Assembly: GCF_028689295.1 (NCBI RefSeq)
Contig: NZ_JAQTWL010000001.1
Location: 62,001-126,000, forward strand
Source: Rhodoferax sp.
GTDB lineage: Bacteria > Pseudomonadota > Gammaproteobacteria > Burkholderiales > Burkholderiaceae_C
Length of the DNA stretch: 64,000 nucleotides
Reading direction: 5' to 3'
Position 1 is the stretch's first letter. Every line of letters starts with the position of its first letter. Both the position numbers and the translations under genes were made by a program. A model generated the notes under the pieces. That model did no database searches, was not told where the DNA came from, and worked only from the letters and a program-made list of their open reading frames with translations. Below, piece after piece: positions 54,984-62,425 of this stretch.

Positions 54984-55023
54984 GCGCTGAGCTGACGCTT
55001 TCACCATTCTCAGGTTTTGGGGT

Positions 55024-55102
55024 GGCAGGGGATGGGTTGGGGCGGCAGCCTCATACTGTCAAAGGCCCAGAAATCGGCCGCCACCCCAACCCATCCCCTG
55101 CC
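55024..55102. repeat. 19-bp perfect inverted repeat after era
   Basis: GGCAGGGGATGGGTTGGGG (55024-55042) and its exact reverse complement (55084-55102) surround 41 bases. There is no T-run. It marks the border between era and the integron. It could be a foldback element or a remnant of another repeat. Confidence 0.85.
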
Positions 55103-55187
55103 GGGGAGTGCTGGTTGAACTCGAACGGCGGAGGTCAAAAATGCAAATTTGGTGCGTCAACGCGGGTGACTGTATTGCAGCTGAGAT

Positions 55188-55829
55188 TCATGACACCAGG
55201 CTACTGAGTGCATCCAGCGGGCTGGCCGTGCCGCCCGCTGCCACCTTGAGCACATGGGTGTAAATCATGGTGGTGCTGACATCCGAGTGGCCCAGCAATT
55301 CTTGAACGGTGCGGATGTCGGTGCCAGCTTGCAATAAATGGGTGGCAAATGAGTGGCGCAAGGTATGAACCGATACCCTCCATCAGCCGCATACCCGTGC
55401 CGTACAGCAGCCGGGCCAGCAGTGCAGCGACGCCGTCCAGTTGGGCCAAAAGGCCTGCCACTTCATCCTTGGTCAACACCGAAGGAATGCGCTTGGTCTG
55501 TTGGGGGCGCCCGATGTTGCTCAGCCAAGGCAAATCGATGACCAGCACTTCGCGATACAGAAACAGCAATGCACTGAGCGCCTGGTTGTGCGTGGACGCA
55601 GACACCTTGCGCTCATTGGCAAGCATGACAAAAAAGCCTCCACATCCGTCACACCCAACTCGCGCGGATGGCGCATGCCACCAACTTGCACAGCATTCCA
55701 GCGGATGAAAAAACGTATCCAATACAGATAAGCTTTCTCGGTTTTGAGGCTATAGTGCAAATACCGAACCCGCTCTCGCACCTGATCGAGCAAGCGGGTT
55801 GACTGCAACAAGGGAGCACCGGGTTTCAT
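55188..55829 (-). pseudogene. intI: Broken integron integrase gene intI
   Basis: Read on the minus strand: [32 protein letters not shown] and [15 protein letters not shown] in one frame; [27 protein letters not shown] and [12 protein letters not shown] (box I) in a second; [29 protein letters not shown] and [17 protein letters not shown] (box II and catalytic Tyr) in a third. These are IntI sequences, not XerC/D. There is a frameshift near 55630, and about 110-120 residues are missing between box I and box II (near 55375), including the IntI-specific insert. The remaining 642 bases cannot make an active enzyme. The direction, away from the cassettes, is standard. Confidence 0.88.
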
Positions 55830-55969
55830 GGATAATTTATACCTGTGTTTGTGTACAGTGTACACATCGCAATCCCAATGTGCAAGCGACTTACAGCACG
55901 ATTTTTAAAAGATGTATCGTCAGTCCCAAGATGTATCAATCGGGGTTTGCCGTCTACATTACGTTAACC
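55830..55969 (+). other. attI region and first cassette junction
   Basis: This is the gap between the intI start and the first cassette. GTTAACC at 55963-55969 is the likely recombination core (expected GTTRRRY, one base off). The cassette then starts at 55964. A cassette promoter should lie near here or within intI, but I cannot point to one with certainty. Confidence 0.6.
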
Positions 55970-55982
55970 AAAGGAGTCCTTC

Positions 55983-56354
55983 ATGGCTGATAAGAAAGTC
56001 GTTTTCGTTGCCTTCGCAATTGAGGACGTGCGCATCCGCGACATGATCAAGGGGCAGTCTTTGCATACCGACTCGCCCTTCGAGTATGTAGACATGTCGG
56101 TCAAAGAAGCCTATGACGAGGAGTGGAAGAAGAAAGTGCGGACTCGCATTCTTCGGTCCGATGGTGTCCTTGTAATTGTCACCAAGAACTCCCTCAACTC
56201 TAGTGGGCAGAAGTGGGAGATTCAATGTGCCAAGGAAGAGAAGAAGAAAATGCGCGGCATCTGGGCTTACAAGGAGGACCGCACCGACCTCGTCGGTGTG
56301 AATACGATGGTCTGGACTTGGCCCAACATCGCAGCCTGGATTGATAGCCTCTGA
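55983..56354 (+). CDS. TIR-like signalling protein (cassette 1)
   Basis: 123 residues of the MTH538/DUF1863 TIR-like fold: [19 protein letters not shown] (strand A), [52 protein letters not shown] with Trp78-Glu79, and RGIWAYK. Proteins of this type in Thoeris systems (ThsB) sense phage and make a cyclic ADP-ribose-type signal from NAD+. AAGGAG lies 7 bases before the ATG. The stop overlaps the caspase-like gene (TGATG), so the two are made together. Function is inferred from fold and partner. Confidence 0.82.
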
Positions 56355-57340
56355 TGCGAAAAGCACTCGTCGTCGGTATCGACTACTACACCAACGTTTC
56401 GCCGCTCTATGGTTGCGTGAACGATTCGTTTGCGGTTAAGGCCATGCTTGATCGGCACGCCGATGGGTCAGTGAACTTTGGCGTGAAGCATCTAACCGCC
56501 ACTGGACCAAGTGATCCTGTTGAGCGAGACGAGCTTCGGCAGGCTATCGAAAGCCTCTTCGCCGGTGATGGTGAAGTTTCGCTCTTCTACTTTGCAGGGC
56601 ATGGTCACATCGAAGCAACTGGCGGCTACCTTTGCTCGTCCGACGTGAAGACCGGTAACGACGGCGTGCCATTGGCTGAGATCATGATCATGGCCAATCA
56701 GTCGAGGATTCAAAACCGCGTGATCATTCTCGATAGCTGTCACAGCGGCGTCGCGGGAGGAAGCGCGTTGCAGCAGAAGGTGACCGAGATCAGCGATGGG
56801 GTAACGATCCTCACAGCATCAACAGCGGAACAGTATGCAACCGAGGAAGATGGTGCCGGTGTCTTTACCAGCTTGTTAGTCGATGCGCTCGGCGGTGCTG
56901 CCGCAAACCTAGTCGGAGATGTGACGCCGGGTGGTGTCTATGCACACGTAGACCAGTCGCTCGGACCATGGGCGCAACGGCCTGTCTTTAAGACTAACGT
57001 CAAGCGGTTCGTTTCCTTGCGCAAGATACCCCCCCCCTTCGAGCTTGCTGAACTTCGCCGGATTTCAGAGTTTTTCCCGACTCCCGGCTTCCAGTTCCAA
57101 CTCGACCCCACATATGAGCCGGAGCGGCACGAATCCTGGGCCACGAACCCGCAAGGCATTCCACCCCCGGATCCTGATCACAATGCAATCTTCAAGATCC
57201 TGCAAAAGTACAACCGCTTTGGGCTTCTCGTGCCTGACGATGCTCCGCACATGTGGCATGCCGCCATGGAGGGCAAGACCATTCACCTCACAGCTCTCGG
57301 CGAGCACTACCGGCGGCTAGCAGCGAAAGGGCTCATATGA
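56354..57340 (+). CDS. Caspase-like cysteine protease (cassette 1)
   Basis: 328 residues. The N-terminal two thirds is a C14 caspase/metacaspase domain: [31 protein letters not shown], catalytic His83 in [11 protein letters not shown] and Cys129 in [15 protein letters not shown], then [14 protein letters not shown] and [11 protein letters not shown]. The C-terminal part (after about residue 215) is unlike known caspases and contains [20 protein letters not shown]; it may bind the signal made by the TIR protein. TIR plus caspase-like effector is the layout of type IV Thoeris-like immunity, in which the signal activates a protease that kills the infected cell. Confidence 0.85.
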
Positions 57341-57377
57341 GCAGCCGATTGTTTTTCAGCACTCTGAGCGGGAATTG

Positions 57378-57449
57378 GCATAACAAGTCGTTCCAGCGGA
57401 CCGTGAAAAAGCTGCGCCTTTCGCCGCCCGCTGAACTCCAACGTCGACC
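57378..57449 (+). repeat. attC site of cassette 1
   Basis: Inverse core GCATAAC (57378-57384), arms AAGTCGTTCCAGCGGACCG and CGCCGCCCGCTGAACTCCAAC, core GTCGACC (57443-57449). The arms match the common CAAGTCGTTCnAGCGGAC...GCCGCTGAACTC type of attC. The core has C instead of T at its third base, a sign of decay or a variant. Confidence 0.8.
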
Positions 57450-57476
57450 CTCATAAGAACCTAAAGAGACTCTGCT

Positions 57477-58343
57477 ATGCCATTTGAAGCCAAAGCGTAT
57501 CGCGTGTTGATTGCCTCGCCAGGCGATGTTGGTGATGAGCGACTAGTCATTCCAGAGGTAATAAACGAATGGAACGCCGTATCCGCGTTTCGTGCAAAGT
57601 CGATATTGATGCCCGTTCGGTGGGAAACCCACACTTACCCAGCAATGGGGGACCGACCGCAAGCGATCATCAACGAGCAGATCGTCAAAGACTGCGATCT
57701 CTTAGTGGGCATATTTTGGACGCGTATCGGCACTCAAACAGGCGTCTCAGTTAGTGGGACGGCGGAAGAGATAGAGCAATTCGTTGCGCAGAAAAAACCA
57801 GTAATGCTTTACTTTTCGCAGACTCCAGTAGACCCTGAAAAACTTGATATTGACCAATTTAAAGTCATGCGGGAATTCCGCGACAAAATGCGCCGTAGCG
57901 GGCTTACAGAGTCTTACGCTGGAACGGCTGACTTCCGACAGAAGTTTGTCCGCCAGCTAAGCTTCAATGTTGATAACCTGCTCAGCTTAGCTCAGAAACC
58001 CACTCGTCCGGCATCCCGTCCATCGTCTGATGCCAAGGCTGGACCCGCTGCTCTATCCCCTTCAGCGGCATTTCTCGGAAAAGAGGCCATTGCGACGAGG
58101 GATCAGGTCTCAGACTATGTTGTTAAAGCTATTCAGAGTACAGCGGCTGAGGACGGCTGGGCAAACATTGCTGCAGTGGGCCAGTATCTGAGCACATACA
58201 CACCTATAAAGTACAAGTTACTCGGCTACGAGACGCTCAAGTCATTCTTGGTTTCCACCAAACTCGTTGAGCTCAAGGCAGAAAAGAAGTCTCCTCGTGC
58301 CCAGACTTTGGACTCGGCCTCAGTCCGGCTAATCGTCAAGTAA
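57477..58343 (+). CDS. DUF4062/TIR-like protein with OST-HTH (LOTUS) domain (cassette 2)
   Basis: 288 residues. The N-terminal 120 (YRVLIASPGDVGDERLVIPEVINEWN, then KDCDLLVGIFWTRIGTQTG and KKPVMLYFSQTPVD) form a DUF4062-type domain related to TIR and nucleoside-deoxyribosyltransferase folds, frequent in bacterial immune proteins. After a Ser/Pro-rich linker, residues 215-288 (WANIAAVGQYLSTYTPIKYKLLGYETLKSFLVS) match OST-HTH/LOTUS, an RNA- or quadruplex-binding domain. The pairing suggests an effector or signal enzyme guided by nucleic acid. Function is inferred. Confidence 0.75.
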   Translation: MPFEAKAYRVLIASPGDVGDERLVIPEVINEWNAVSAFRAKSILMPVRWETHTYPAMGDRPQAIINEQIVKDCDLLVGIFWTRIGTQTGVSVSGTAEEIEQFVAQKKPVMLYFSQTPVDPEKLDIDQFKVMREFRDKMRRSGLTESYAGTADFRQKFVRQLSFNVDNLLSLAQKPTRPASRPSSDAKAGPAALSPSAAFLGKEAIATRDQVSDYVVKAIQSTAAEDGWANIAAVGQYLSTYTPIKYKLLGYETLKSFLVSTKLVELKAEKKSPRAQTLDSASVRLIVK

Positions 58344-58364
58344 TACTGATGCTGTCTAAGTGAG

Positions 58365-58451
58365 GGTTAACAGGTTGCTCGTCGCGGACACACAGCAGCA
58401 GAATGCCGCTCCGCGGCGAGTGCTGCGTGCCGGACAGCGCCAACGTTGGGC
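58365..58451 (+). repeat. attC site of cassette 2
   Basis: The core GTTGGGC at 58445-58451 is perfect. The inverse core is less clear (GGTTAAC at 58365-58371). Inner arms CTCGTCGCGG and CCGCGGCGAG pair well. A degenerate but recognisable attC. Confidence 0.65.
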
Positions 58452-58471
58452 AACACAAGAGCGCTTCCGAA

Positions 58472-58738
58472 ATGCTTAGCGTTGCTGTTCATTTTGCCGT
58501 CGGGTCGGGTGCTTCACTGCTCATGTTTCTGGGCTTCACTTGGTTATCGGGGGCGCGGAGCTTCTCTGCACCGTTCGCAGTCCTGTTCATCGGTTTCACA
58601 TGCGGGTTGCTCTCGCACTTCGTTTCGCCGTGGGCGACCCCTGTGGTTCTTGTCCTGTACGGCGTAGCATCGGCCATTGAGTATCGCAATGACCGCATTA
58701 CCGCAAACAAGCATGCCTCGGAGACTGCCCGCCAATGA
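58472..58738 (+). CDS. Small membrane protein (cassette 3)
   Basis: 88 residues with hydrophobic segments LSVAVHFAVGSGASLLMFLGFTWL, FAVLFIGFTCGLLSHFV and WATPVVLVLYGVASAIEY, and a charged C-terminus. The family is not recognised. The ATG at 58472 is the first in frame after the attC core; a start further upstream would lie in the recombination site. Confidence 0.55.
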   Translation: MLSVAVHFAVGSGASLLMFLGFTWLSGARSFSAPFAVLFIGFTCGLLSHFVSPWATPVVLVLYGVASAIEYRNDRITANKHASETARQ

Positions 58739-58751
58739 TTGACGTTGTGTC

Positions 58752-58841
58752 GCCCAACAGCACGCCCCACCCGGACGCGCGGGAAACACCGCACCTTGGT
58801 CAAGTAGCGCTGCCGCGCGCCGGTGGGCGTGAACGTTGGGC
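58752..58841 (+). repeat. attC site of cassette 3
   Basis: GCCCAAC (58752-58758) and GTTGGGC (58835-58841) are perfect complements. Between them CACGCCCCACCCGGACGCGCGG pairs with CCGCGCGCCGGTGGGCGTG with a few bulged bases, the expected extrahelical pattern. Confidence 0.92.
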
Positions 58842-58848
58842 CTAACCA

Positions 58849-59940
58849 ATGTCACTACCACGGATGACTAACCGCTTCCAAAGGCACTTTGCAAGTCGAA
58901 AGGCTTTGCGAAAGGCCCACCCTACAGCTCGGGGAAACAATAGCCCAAGGTTGACTATCGAGACGGTCAGTCACGTGGCTCAGATAGCCTTGGCTGTGGT
59001 TGCAATATTCGGTTACTTCTACACTGTTTTACCCGTCTATCAGAAGGAAAGACTTGCTGAACAGGTTGCCGAATACGAGGGCATTATCAAGAAGCAAGCG
59101 CCTAAGATCGCCGAAGCCGAAGGGCGTTTGGCCGAGTTGGAGCAAGAACGCTGGCGGCTGACGCAAAACCTAAAGAATATTGAAGGGCAATTGTCGATAG
59201 CGCGCGATCAGAAGAGCAAGATTGAAGGTCAGGTTCAGTACATGACCTTCCGCTATCGATTACCCGACGGGACTCCCGCAACAACTCAACAACAGGTACG
59301 GACGGCACAGACCCTTGAATTGCGGCGATCATTTTTGTCGACCCTTAATATGTCATGTACCTTGGGCTTGGGTGGTGATGTGTTCCCCTCCTATTCGCAT
59401 CTCAAGGAAGATGAGAAGAGCAAGTTCTGGCCGTTTACCGAAAAGGAACTCGGTATATGGAAGGAATATGGCCCAAAGTATCCGCTAAAGCGAGCGACTG
59501 AATGCATCGACTCTGTTGCTGCCAGCTTTTCGCAACGCTACGGGAGTGATGGCCCTACTTCGGATATCGAAGAACTTCGCAAAGAGGCTGTTCAATACGC
59601 GAACACTGCTGGATCAAAACAATGGGCACCACCATTTGAACCGGCAGACCTGTTGCAAGAATTGGGTGCCAAACGGTCCGCAATAGAGTCTGATATGAAC
59701 GCCGCACTCAATAAGGTAGAGGATGAATACGGTGATTGGGAGTCTGTCTTCGGAGAATCTCGACGCGCTATCTTTAAGCATAACTACGAGGTCAGAAAAC
59801 AAAACGCAAAAACTCAAGCCCTCAGTAGCCGCTTGTCCCTGGCATACAGCACGCAAGAAAAAGCAAACGTATTTAGAAAAGGCATTAACCAAGAAGTTAA
59901 ACGTTTGATCATCAATGAAGACAAGAGAGGTTCAAGGTAA
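58849..59940 (+). CDS. Membrane-anchored coiled-coil protein (cassette 4)
   Basis: 363 residues: a basic N-terminus, one transmembrane helix at about residues 39-60 (VSHVAQIALAVVAIFGYFYTVLPVY), a coiled coil at about 65-125 (LAEQVAEYEGIIKKQAPKIAEAEGRLAELEQERWRL), then a mostly helical domain without a match I know. It begins only eight bases after the attC core, with no visible ribosome-binding site, as is common for cassette genes. It may be a sensor or effector at the membrane, but this is a guess. Confidence 0.7.
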   Translation: MSLPRMTNRFQRHFASRKALRKAHPTARGNNSPRLTIETVSHVAQIALAVVAIFGYFYTVLPVYQKERLAEQVAEYEGIIKKQAPKIAEAEGRLAELEQERWRLTQNLKNIEGQLSIARDQKSKIEGQVQYMTFRYRLPDGTPATTQQQVRTAQTLELRRSFLSTLNMSCTLGLGGDVFPSYSHLKEDEKSKFWPFTEKELGIWKEYGPKYPLKRATECIDSVAASFSQRYGSDGPTSDIEELRKEAVQYANTAGSKQWAPPFEPADLLQELGAKRSAIESDMNAALNKVEDEYGDWESVFGESRRAIFKHNYEVRKQNAKTQALSSRLSLAYSTQEKANVFRKGINQEVKRLIINEDKRGSR

Positions 59941-59950
59941 TGAAGCTCTT

Positions 59951-60017
59951 GCCCAACCCATCATTCCACCGGACCTGTGTGAAATGCCGCGCAGTCCGGT
60001 GAATTCAAACGTTGGGC
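59951..60017 (+). repeat. attC site of cassette 4
   Basis: GCCCAAC (59951-59957) and GTTGGGC (60011-60017) are perfect complements. The arms ATTCCACCGGAC and GTCCGGTGAATTC pair almost fully. A textbook attC of 67 bp. Confidence 0.94.
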
Positions 60018-60058
60018 ATGTGTAACCCCGTGATAACGAAATCAAAGAATCGATAACT

Positions 60059-61533
60059 ATGTATTACAAGTACAGAGGCAACTCAAAATACACGGATATG
60101 ATCTTTTCCACGGGGAAAGTGCGTTTATCGACAGCGCATGCACTTAACGATCCGTTTGAATGTTCTCTCCAAGTAATTGGCGCAAATTGGATAAAAAAAA
60201 AACTCTTGAGATGAAAAGCGCCGGAATTGCTGGTTTTGTTATTGCGGTTCATAAATCTATAAAGGAAAGAACTCCATTTTTTGGGGTAAATCCAGATGAG
60301 CTTCCGCATATCCTTGAAATACTTTCCCAAAAAACCGACATAGCAAGCTCGTATGAGTATTACAAGGATGTAATGTTGAGAGTAAACGGACATCCATCTT
60401 CCAACCCTGATACGTTATTCGAAAACCTAGATGATCAGCTGAATCAGGTCGGAATATTCAGTTTGTCTTCAAGTTGCTCAGTTCAGTTGCTTTGGGCGCA
60501 CTACGCTGAAGATCACAAGGGAATTTGCATCGGGTTTTCACCAGAAGAAGGTAAGAAATTTTGTAGCACAGAAAATTTTATGAAGGTGATTTATTCGGAT
60601 GAAATACCAAGAATGTCTGATGAAGGGTTTAATGTTCAGATGAGTATGAGTGTTGATGAATCAGGCAGGCCGTACACTTCTTCTTTTAAGATCGCCTTTT
60701 CAGATAAAACGTTTCAATCTGCAATAAGAACAAAGCCAACTTGTTGGGCGTATGAAGAAGAATGGCGTTACGTTGAACCATTGGGAGGAGACTACGAATG
60801 GCCAGGCAGAATATCAGAGATTGTTTTTGGCCTAAAATGTCCTCAAAAAGTACGGGAACATTATATAAATCTAGCCACTAGAAACATTCCAAATGAAGTT
60901 CTTCTTTATGAAATGGTAAAACAAGAAGGGGGAAACAAGGTTGTACGCACCCCCTACAAAATCGAGAAAACAACACCCCCCATTTCGCTCGCAAGCGGGA
61001 AAACAGTAGATCAAGACGGAAATAAGATAAAGCAGCTGAGTGTTGAGCAATTTGCTCATGAAGTAATGAGACTGCTAGAAAAACGTGATTTCGAAGAGGC
61101 TTTGTATCAACTTGACTCCAATTCAAGTGATTCACCTGATTCACCACACCTTCTAAATTTAAAAGCAATGGCCTTGGGGATGAGTGGAGACCATGAAGGC
61201 GCTCTTGATGTGTTTAGCAAATTAAATAATATGTTCCCCGATCAACCAGATATTTTATATCAACAAAGTTGCGCTTTAAGCGCGCTGCTTAGAAACTCTG
61301 AGGCTATTGAACTGCTCAAAAAGGCTAACGAATTAGATCACAATGATCCAAGCATTCCTTTCAACCTCGGCGTAGAGATAATTAGGGGCGGTGGCGATAT
61401 TGAATATGCGAAAGGCGTTCTTAATACTTCGAGATTAATGGGGCACCCAAGAGCGGCCTTGGTGTTAAAAAGTTTGAATGAACAAGAACTACTTAAGCCC
61501 AACAGTCAGGTCAACAAGGACGCTTCGCGCTGA
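60059..61533 (+). CDS. DUF2971-TPR protein, frame broken at an A10 tract (cassette 5)
   Basis: Two frames together make one protein. The first (60059 to about 60200) reads MYYKYRGNSKYTDMIFSTGKVRLSTAHALNDPFECSLQVIGANWIKKK, the DUF2971 N-terminus. The second (open from 60160) continues TLEMKSAGIAGFVIAVHKS, with the DUF2971 core LLWAHYAEDHKGICIGFSPEEG, then VIYSDEIPRMS and CWAYEEEWRYVEPLGGDYEW, and C-terminal TPR repeats (about 300-440). They meet at ten A bases (60193-60202); one extra A, or two fewer, restores the frame. This can be decay, phase variation, polymerase slippage or a sequencing error. The stop lies inside the final attC, normal for cassette genes. Confidence 0.75.
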
Positions 61534-61565
61534 CGCGCTCGCGCCTGTTACCTGAAACGTTAATG
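61497..61565 (+). repeat. Last attC site of the array (cassette 5)
   Basis: Inverse core GCCCAAC (61497-61503), arms CAGGTCAAC and TTACCTGAAAC, inner GC-rich stem, and core GTTAATG (61559-61565). The core departs from GTTRRRY only after the cut site, which fits the end of an array where those bases are chromosomal. Confidence 0.8.
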
Positions 61566-61675: not shown

Positions 61676-62425
61676 ATGGCCACCAAGCGCATTTCTGACG
61701 AACCGGCCTATGTGCTGCATCGCTACGACTGGAGCGAAACCAGCCTGATTCTGGACGTGTTCACCCGCCACCATGGCCGCATGGCGCTGGTGGCCAAGGG
61801 CGTCAAGCGGCCCAGTTCCAGCTTTCGACCGATTTTGTTGCCATTGCAACCGTTGCACCTGGCTTTTGGTGGCGAGGCTGAAATCAAAACCCTCAAAGCT
61901 GCCGAGTGGCAGGGCGGTCACGTCATGCCGACCGGTGACGCGTTGATGTCGGGTTATTACCTCAATGAGCTGCTGATGCTGCTGCTGGCGCGTGAAGACC
62001 CACATCCGGTTTTGTTTGATGTTTATGCCAGCGTGGTGCAGATCATTGCCAGCGAGCACGGCGAGGTGCTCGAAGCAGCCCTGCGTGCCTTCGAGCTCTT
62101 GCTGCTGCGTGAAATTGGCCTGCTGCCCTTGCTCGATACCCAAACCATGACGCTGCTGGCGCTGCACCCGGATGAACATTACAGTTTGGTGCCCGAAGGC
62201 GGTTTGCGACTGGCCAACGACGCTGACCGCAGCAGCTTGAGTGGAGCCCAGTGGACGGCGCTGCAACTAGCCCTGGGGGACCGCGTGTCCCTCACGACAG
62301 TGTTGCGCGCTTGTGCTGAAGTGGCCAGCGCGCTCAAGCCCCAATTGCGCACCCTGCTCAATTACCATTGCGGGGTGCCCACCCTGCGCACCCGGCAAAT
62401 GATGATTGATCTGCAAAGCTTATGA
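61676..62425 (+). CDS. recO: DNA repair protein RecO
   Basis: Loads RecA with RecR in recombinational repair. 249 residues: N-terminal OB fold ([50 protein letters not shown]) and the helical C-terminal domain ([16 protein letters not shown]). In this betaproteobacterial form the zinc-binding Cys residues are absent. It normally follows era directly; the integron lies between. The stop overlaps pdxJ. Confidence 0.95.

Follow-up and report, generated by a model that had tools for sequence, protein, structure and literature searches.

In the genome of a Rhodoferax sp. (assembly GCF_028689295.1), a TIR gene and a gene for a caspase-like protease lie beside the remains of an integron integrase. 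Do these two genes form a complete anti-phage circuit, and did they travel together as one integron cassette? Coordinates given below without a locus number refer to the window, i.e., the whole 64,000-nt stretch analyzed (positions 62,001 to 126,000 of contig NZ_JAQTWL010000001.1); numbers such as L060 denote loci used for comparison.

Two overlapping genes encode a ThsB-like TIR protein and a caspase-like protease

The original prediction described a TIR ORF overlapping a caspase-like ORF, and both were recovered at the coordinates it gave, with an overlap of 1 base (TGATG).

55983..56354, + strand: TIR protein (ThsB type), 123 aa, putative NAD+-using signal synthase (family, fold, and Glu79 conservation)
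56354..57340, + strand: caspase-like protease, 328 aa (family, fold, and conservation of His83 and Cys129)
57029..57337, + strand: caspase residues 226 to 328, a conserved C-terminal part outside the caspase fold and candidate signal receptor (outside the PDB matches listed)

At the sequence level, the family match of the TIR protein is weak: it matched Pfam ThsB_TIR with an E value of 8e-5 (23.4 bits; cut-off, 21.2), scored 22.4 bits with TIR_2 (below the cut-off of 28), and gave no match in a PDB sequence search at E values up to 1. PADLOC ThsB models also matched it (best, 5.7e-6), and in structure comparison its predicted fold resembled those of the Bacillus cereus TIR protein 8fz9 and ThsB 6lhy, to which it is 16 to 19% identical. 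Glu79 (codon at 56217-56219) was unchanged in 53 of 53 aligned TIR proteins of the window's class.

The caspase was matched by Pfam Peptidase_C14 (6.8e-14; 52.5 bits against a cut-off of 21.4) and by the PADLOC caspase model (1.3e-18), and its predicted fold resembled MALT1 and metacaspases over approximately residues 1 to 228; a structure search among viral models returned mainly caspase-like proteins of large DNA viruses. With NCBIfam NF047832 (EACC1-associated caspases), it scored 89.4 bits, below the curated membership cut-off of 140; those proteins have a related bacterial caspase domain, whereas the partner of the window caspase is a TIR protein. Both His83 (codon at 56600-56602) and Cys129 (56738-56740) were conserved in all 77 aligned caspases. 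Thus, the profile and structure comparisons support the likeness of the TIR protein to ThsB (Pfam, PADLOC, and 6lhy) and that of the caspase to MALT1 and metacaspases, and the three catalytic residues sit where they had been predicted and are invariant in the aligned relatives.

In contrast to metacaspases and MALT1, the window caspase has an extra conserved region, residues 226 to 328, which lies outside the listed matches. Sixteen of its 103 positions were invariant, the block means of pLDDT in the model were at least 92 from residue 271 on, and VIA-align with the whole caspase as the query listed no match covering the region. We infer that it probably holds the signal-binding site.

Against four relatives (L060, L061, L062, and L070), pN/pS was 0.118 to 0.132 for the TIR gene and 0.099 to 0.131 for the caspase gene; against L060, the nearest relative, it was 0.13. 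These values, 0.10 to 0.13 overall, indicate that both genes have been kept under purifying selection. A scan of positions 55150 to 57600 for a sigma-70-like promoter found none.

Both genes lie within one integron cassette

55964..57443, + strand: integron cassette 1, containing both genes, 1,480 bp, reaching from the attI junction (G/TT) through the G in the right box of attC (attI junction and DNA homology to L060 and L061)
55830..55963, no strand assigned: attI region separating the start of intI from the cassette (alignment with congeners having full-length intI)
57378..57449, + strand: attC1, attC-like site GCATAAC ... GTCGACC, arms GTTCCAGCGG and CCGCTGAAC, one extra-helical base (score, 27.6)

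On the left, the intI-attI sequences of two congeners (L037 and L038) match the window up to ...TTGCCGT-TA-ATTACGTT and diverge from it at 55963/55964, the place at which the L040 contig ends. On the right, attC1 has the two-box layout typical of attC sites, with a degenerate right box (GTCGACC), and its score corresponds to a p value of 0.019 against 5,000 random stretches, which alone is not significant at 1%. The strongest evidence for the cassette limits is comparative: DNA homology to a Thiobacillus metagenome-assembled genome (L060) covers 55964-57444 (94.5% over 1,482 bp) and so ends within one base of the attI and attC boundaries, and homology to L061 likewise starts at 55964. The L060 unit has GTTATGC at its left flank and, at its right, an attC-like site with a GTTAGGC box, the counterpart of attC1 (p = 0.0016). 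The left end of cassette 1 is without approximately seven bases (TTATGCC) that are found in L060. Hence the attI junction, the attC-like site, and the coextensive L060 homology uphold the proposal that the whole pair occupies a single cassette, and this homology shows that cassette 1 moved as a unit in the past. A neighboring 1,039-aa ORF in L060 resembles, by eye, HsdR of a type I restriction system.

The adjacent integrase is a pseudogene

55194..55829, - strand: intI pseudogene of an integron integrase, with a frame change and approximately 120 codons gone inside (residues ~154 to 273; compared with full-length relatives)

The original prediction did not mention that this integrase gene is a pseudogene. 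Full-length relatives of this IntI (335 aa) are present in L037, L038, and L040. A search of the window's own assembly (3.49 Mb, 72 contigs, 96.8% complete) found no intact IntI; it yielded the pseudogene pieces and one 61-residue fragment on contig C23. Contigs C43 and C23 also have more distant IntI matches within longer open frames, and these matches we take to be other tyrosine recombinases. Because intI is a pseudogene and no intact IntI was found, the cassette should not move by itself now, and present movement would need an integrase supplied in trans. The predicted mobility of the pair as a unit is therefore supported for the past, by the L060 homology, but not for the present. In Marinobacter sp. 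AC-23 (L098, 4940-5990), a truncated IntI fragment lies divergently beside a TIR-caspase pair, which is a second case of the pair next to a decayed integrase.

Array and genomic setting

The integron sits between era and recO, and its array comprises five cassettes. Among eight relatives' loci examined, the end of era was present in four; recO followed it at approximately 0, 150, and 1,070 bases in three of these (L024, L025, and L026) and was not found within the 1.5 kb covered in L022. Four further cassettes follow cassette 1, each closed by an attC-like site, of which attC2 is weak.

57444..58445, + strand: cassette 2, DUF4062 plus OST-HTH/LOTUS protein, 288 aa (57477-58343); weak attC-like site at 58365-58451 (p = 0.058)
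58446..58835, + strand: cassette 3, short ORF that looks hydrophobic by eye and matches no family above the cut-off; attC-like site at 58752-58841
58836..60011, + strand: cassette 4, 363-aa ORF (58849-59940) with weak coiled-coil matches below the cut-offs; attC-like site at 59951-60017
60012..61559, + strand: cassette 5, DUF2971 plus TPR protein (60160-61533); attC-like site at 61497-61565

The cassette 2 protein scored 23.6 bits with DUF4062, just below the cut-off of 24.7, and above the cut-off with OST-HTH. DUF4062 is described as the TIR-like NADase family of the Swarozyc defense system (PMC13174449, in part), and the main text of that paper does not mention LOTUS or OST-HTH. With a TIR domain in cassette 1 and DUF4062 in cassette 2, both cassettes look like NAD-consuming defenses. 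The cassette 5 protein matched the PADLOC candidate family PDC-S31 (1.2e-31).

In L037 and L038, full-length IntI proteins of the same family lie, by eye, beside genes other than era and recO; these differing neighbors suggest that the integron platform has moved within the genus. A palindromic element of approximately 85 bp follows era (55022-55105), and many such repeats occur in congeneric genomes. Rfam microRNA matches to this element were below the gathering scores and were rejected, the element being a palindromic repeat, and an origin of the integron from flanking MITEs was unsupported since no palindromic copy was found at its other side.

The pair is a conserved operon

In a profile-guided scan of 84,980 species, each represented by one genome, at least 460 relatives were confirmed. 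The best 80 of these were kept; they come from many bacterial phyla and include three archaeal-labelled records (L077, L087, and L105), for which misbinning is possible. Together with 7 loci from a viral collection, 13 from plasmid and phage collections, and the window, they make up the 101 loci compared here. By tblastn, the caspase matched 71 of 72,556 plasmid records, 40 of these 71 being typed as conjugative, and 2 of 50,697 phage-collection records; the TIR protein was matched in 49 plasmid records. Among 148 related genomes, the caspase was found only in the window's own, a sporadic occurrence.

A TIR gene lies directly upstream of the caspase gene in 94 of the 101 loci, a share that need not hold further out because the loci are mostly the closest relatives. 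These TIR proteins fall into three classes, of 69, 13, and 12 members. In seven loci (L051, L077, L082, L097, L101, L102, and L123), the search recognized no TIR gene: five of them have no suitable upstream ORF, and two have an ORF with no match. The TIR-caspase pair is thus a conserved operon, and its recurrence in many phyla, together with the pN/pS values given above, argues against a chance ORF call. In Sinorhizobium chiapasense (L027, 4945-6765), two more TIR domain genes follow the pair.

Different TIR classes precede closely related caspases

Five loci (L004, L005, L046, L066, and L075) have a caspase 82 to 91% identical to that of the window, preceded by a TIR protein of another class. 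On a caspase tree of 87 of the 94 TIR-bearing loci, from which identical caspases had been dropped, the three classes required at least 15 changes, against a possible minimum of 2 and a mean of 23.7 for shuffled classes. Besides, in nucleotide comparisons of the window with each of these five loci, homology begins at base 1 or 2 of the caspase gene. These results are most simply read as replacement of the gene upstream of the caspase, with the break at the border between the genes. Exchange of TIR proteins on one caspase predicts that they share one common signal.

Cassette carriage in other loci

Scripts were used for attC detection because MAFFT aligned the loops of ten attC-like sites poorly for a covariance model; two early scans overlooked attC1, attC2, and attC5 of the window. 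The first flank scorer gave p values of <0.01 in 3 of 101 downstream and 3 of 94 upstream flanks. The second, which allowed an extra-helical base and was introduced after L070 had been seen to be missed, did so in 7 of 101 downstream flanks (L060, L065, L070, L031, L105, L095, and L119) and 2 of 94 upstream flanks (L031 and L132), with approximately one of each expected by chance. Twelve sites judged to be array attC sites, including attC1, all reached p values of <0.06, and seven of them reached <0.01. The attC-like sites after the caspase in L060, L065, L070, L031, and L105 look sound; L031 is plasmid pTBH13 (13.5 kb), which has several attC-like sites. Those in L095 and L119 look doubtful, given the poor agreement of their left boxes with the consensus, and the upstream site in L132 looks doubtful as well.

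Fully complementary left and right boxes (7/7) were found in 4 of 93 loci (L031, L070, L106, and L107), a number reached in none of 2,000 permutations (mean, 0.43), but these are not four independent events, since L031, L106, and L107 lie near one another on the caspase tree, and the L107 flank is not convincing. The window, with TTATGCC missing from its left end, does not pass this test, and L060 is off by one mismatch. In L061 and L062, GTTATGC occurs shortly before the TIR gene. From these sequence signs, several operon lineages, which between them include two or more TIR classes, seem to have once been cassettes; the remaining loci of the 101 gave no clear cassette sign in the attC and box tests.

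A RyR-like third gene follows the caspase in some loci

In 39 of the 101 loci, a protein of approximately 90 aa is encoded immediately after the caspase (e.g., L006, 5995-6270; also L028, L029, L030, and L033, among others). It was found only with the window's TIR class (39 of 69 loci versus none of the 25 loci with either of the other classes; p = 1e-7, uncorrected for relatedness). The two members tested matched Pfam RyR weakly, with E values of 2.7e-4 (21.6 bits) and 0.015 (16 bits), both scores being under the cut-off of 27.4. A His-x-x-Trp motif and an Asp residue were invariant in 39 of 39 of these proteins, and no counterpart of His100 was seen in them. Assigned as ligand residues by motif spacing, this His, Trp, and Asp would be expected to touch a cADPR ligand.

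A phage sponge against TIR-caspase immunity was reportedly described by Chen in 2026. Phage RyR domain proteins are reported, in the accessible part of the source, to bind or degrade cADPR signals; six of eight RyR homologues tested in that report bound the signals and the homologues did not degrade them, and N7-cADPR goes unmentioned in that part. It is a reasonable idea that the third protein may be an off switch or a sponge for the system's own signal.

In the window, tblastn found no third gene, and a short ORF past the caspase (57337-57456) has by eye no likeness to the third protein. The gene was present in none of 11 cassette-like loci (the window, L031, L060 to L063, L065, L070, L098, L105, and L106) versus 39 of the 90 others (Fisher p = 0.006), a contrast that is suggestive only because the 11 were chosen post hoc and seven of them belong to one clade.

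Function and alternative explanations

Taking these lines together, the pair is very probably an operon for abortive infection by a TIR protein and a caspase, of the type IV Thoeris kind, that was captured as one integron cassette, so that the functional interpretation in the original prediction seems, by analogy, mostly right. Phage infection would activate the TIR protein, which would use Glu79 to make a cyclic ADP-ribose signal from NAD+; in the published system, this signal is N7-cADPR. The molecule would bind the caspase, probably at its conserved C-terminal region, and the His83-Cys129 protease would then switch on and degrade cell proteins, sacrificing the cell to halt phage growth.

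Type IV Thoeris (Rousset et al. 2025, Science 387:510), as described in PMC12847820 (in part), combines a TIR NADase that makes N7-cADPR and a caspase-like protease in one operon, and the protease degrades cell proteins. Another source (PMC13373217, in part) reports 12 type IV Thoeris operons situated after capK-capS. The window has an adjacent TIR gene and caspase gene in one operon, with the Glu residue and the His/Cys dyad present, but its copy is packed as an integron cassette; the likeness is to the published description, not to the published sequences. Type I Thoeris differs in that its effector is the SIR2 NADase ThsA, whereas that of the window system is a caspase. As an integron cassette, the unit has an attI left end, an attC-like right end, and the same unit elsewhere (L060), but no functional integrase nearby, which a cassette requires for present movement and not for being a cassette. 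Integron-borne anti-phage cassettes (Darracq 2025, Kieffer 2025, and Getz 2025; PMC12409362 and PMC12444791, in part) are likewise small defense systems with an attC site, whereas the window array is short (five cassettes), has a dead integrase, and lies between era and recO. The TIR-caspase pair is not among the cassettes named in the available parts of PMC12409362 and PMC12444791, and that of PMC12926258 describes no TIR-caspase cassette. A full-text literature search for integron cassettes with a caspase and a TIR domain gave no match, which does not imply absence from print.

Toxin-antitoxin pairs are often carried by integron cassettes, and caspase-like proteins have non-immune roles too. 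On this background, a toxin-antitoxin or housekeeping protease pair with no anti-phage role could be proposed; we regard it as highly improbable, since the TIR protein resembles ThsB in sequence and fold and retains its conserved catalytic Glu, and since mobile plasmids carry the pair repeatedly. A closer rival is a defense that resembles type IV Thoeris without belonging to it, with a signal other than N7-cADPR (e.g., 2'cADPR, 3'cADPR, or His-ADPR) or with direct contact between the TIR protein and the caspase. Signal chemistry cannot be read from sequence, and three dissimilar TIR classes with related caspases would also fit another shared signal. Nevertheless, the gene order and parts agree with the published description of type IV Thoeris (PMC12847820, in part), and a shared small-molecule signal would explain the exchange of dissimilar TIR proteins more simply than three protein contacts, which makes this rival unlikely.

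It is also conceivable, with a somewhat better though still low chance, that the pair is a decaying or silent passenger, i.e., a former defense cassette that is no longer expressed or mobile, its integron being dead. The intI pseudogene, the altered cassette boxes, and the lack of a promoter match would fit such a fate, whereas both ORFs are intact, the active sites are invariant, pN/pS is low even against the nearest relative, and the first integron position is reported to be highly expressed where the promoter works (PMC12409362, in part).

Implications

The pair itself belongs to known kinds, and it is the TIR exchange, the RyR-like third gene, and the cassette spread that carry most interest. 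A tentative model, on which we would place slightly less than even chances, is that of a plug-in immune cartridge in which the caspase stays constant as the core: TIR proteins of three classes with scant sequence similarity, swapped repeatedly at the caspase start codon, would detect different phage cues and make one signal, integron cassettes would be one vehicle of the two-gene form between distant bacteria, and the RyR-like third gene, which the cassette form would be without, would encode an off switch of the system itself, acting by binding or breaking the signal.

This locus links TIR-caspase immunity with the role of integrons as reservoirs of anti-phage genes, both of them recent findings, and its DNA boundaries show that a complete two-protein, putative suicide-immunity circuit travelled as a single cassette. 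Besides, the family comparison raises the questions of whether dissimilar TIR proteins make one interchangeable signal and whether the RyR-like third protein switches the alarm off, as phage RyR proteins reportedly do with related signals.
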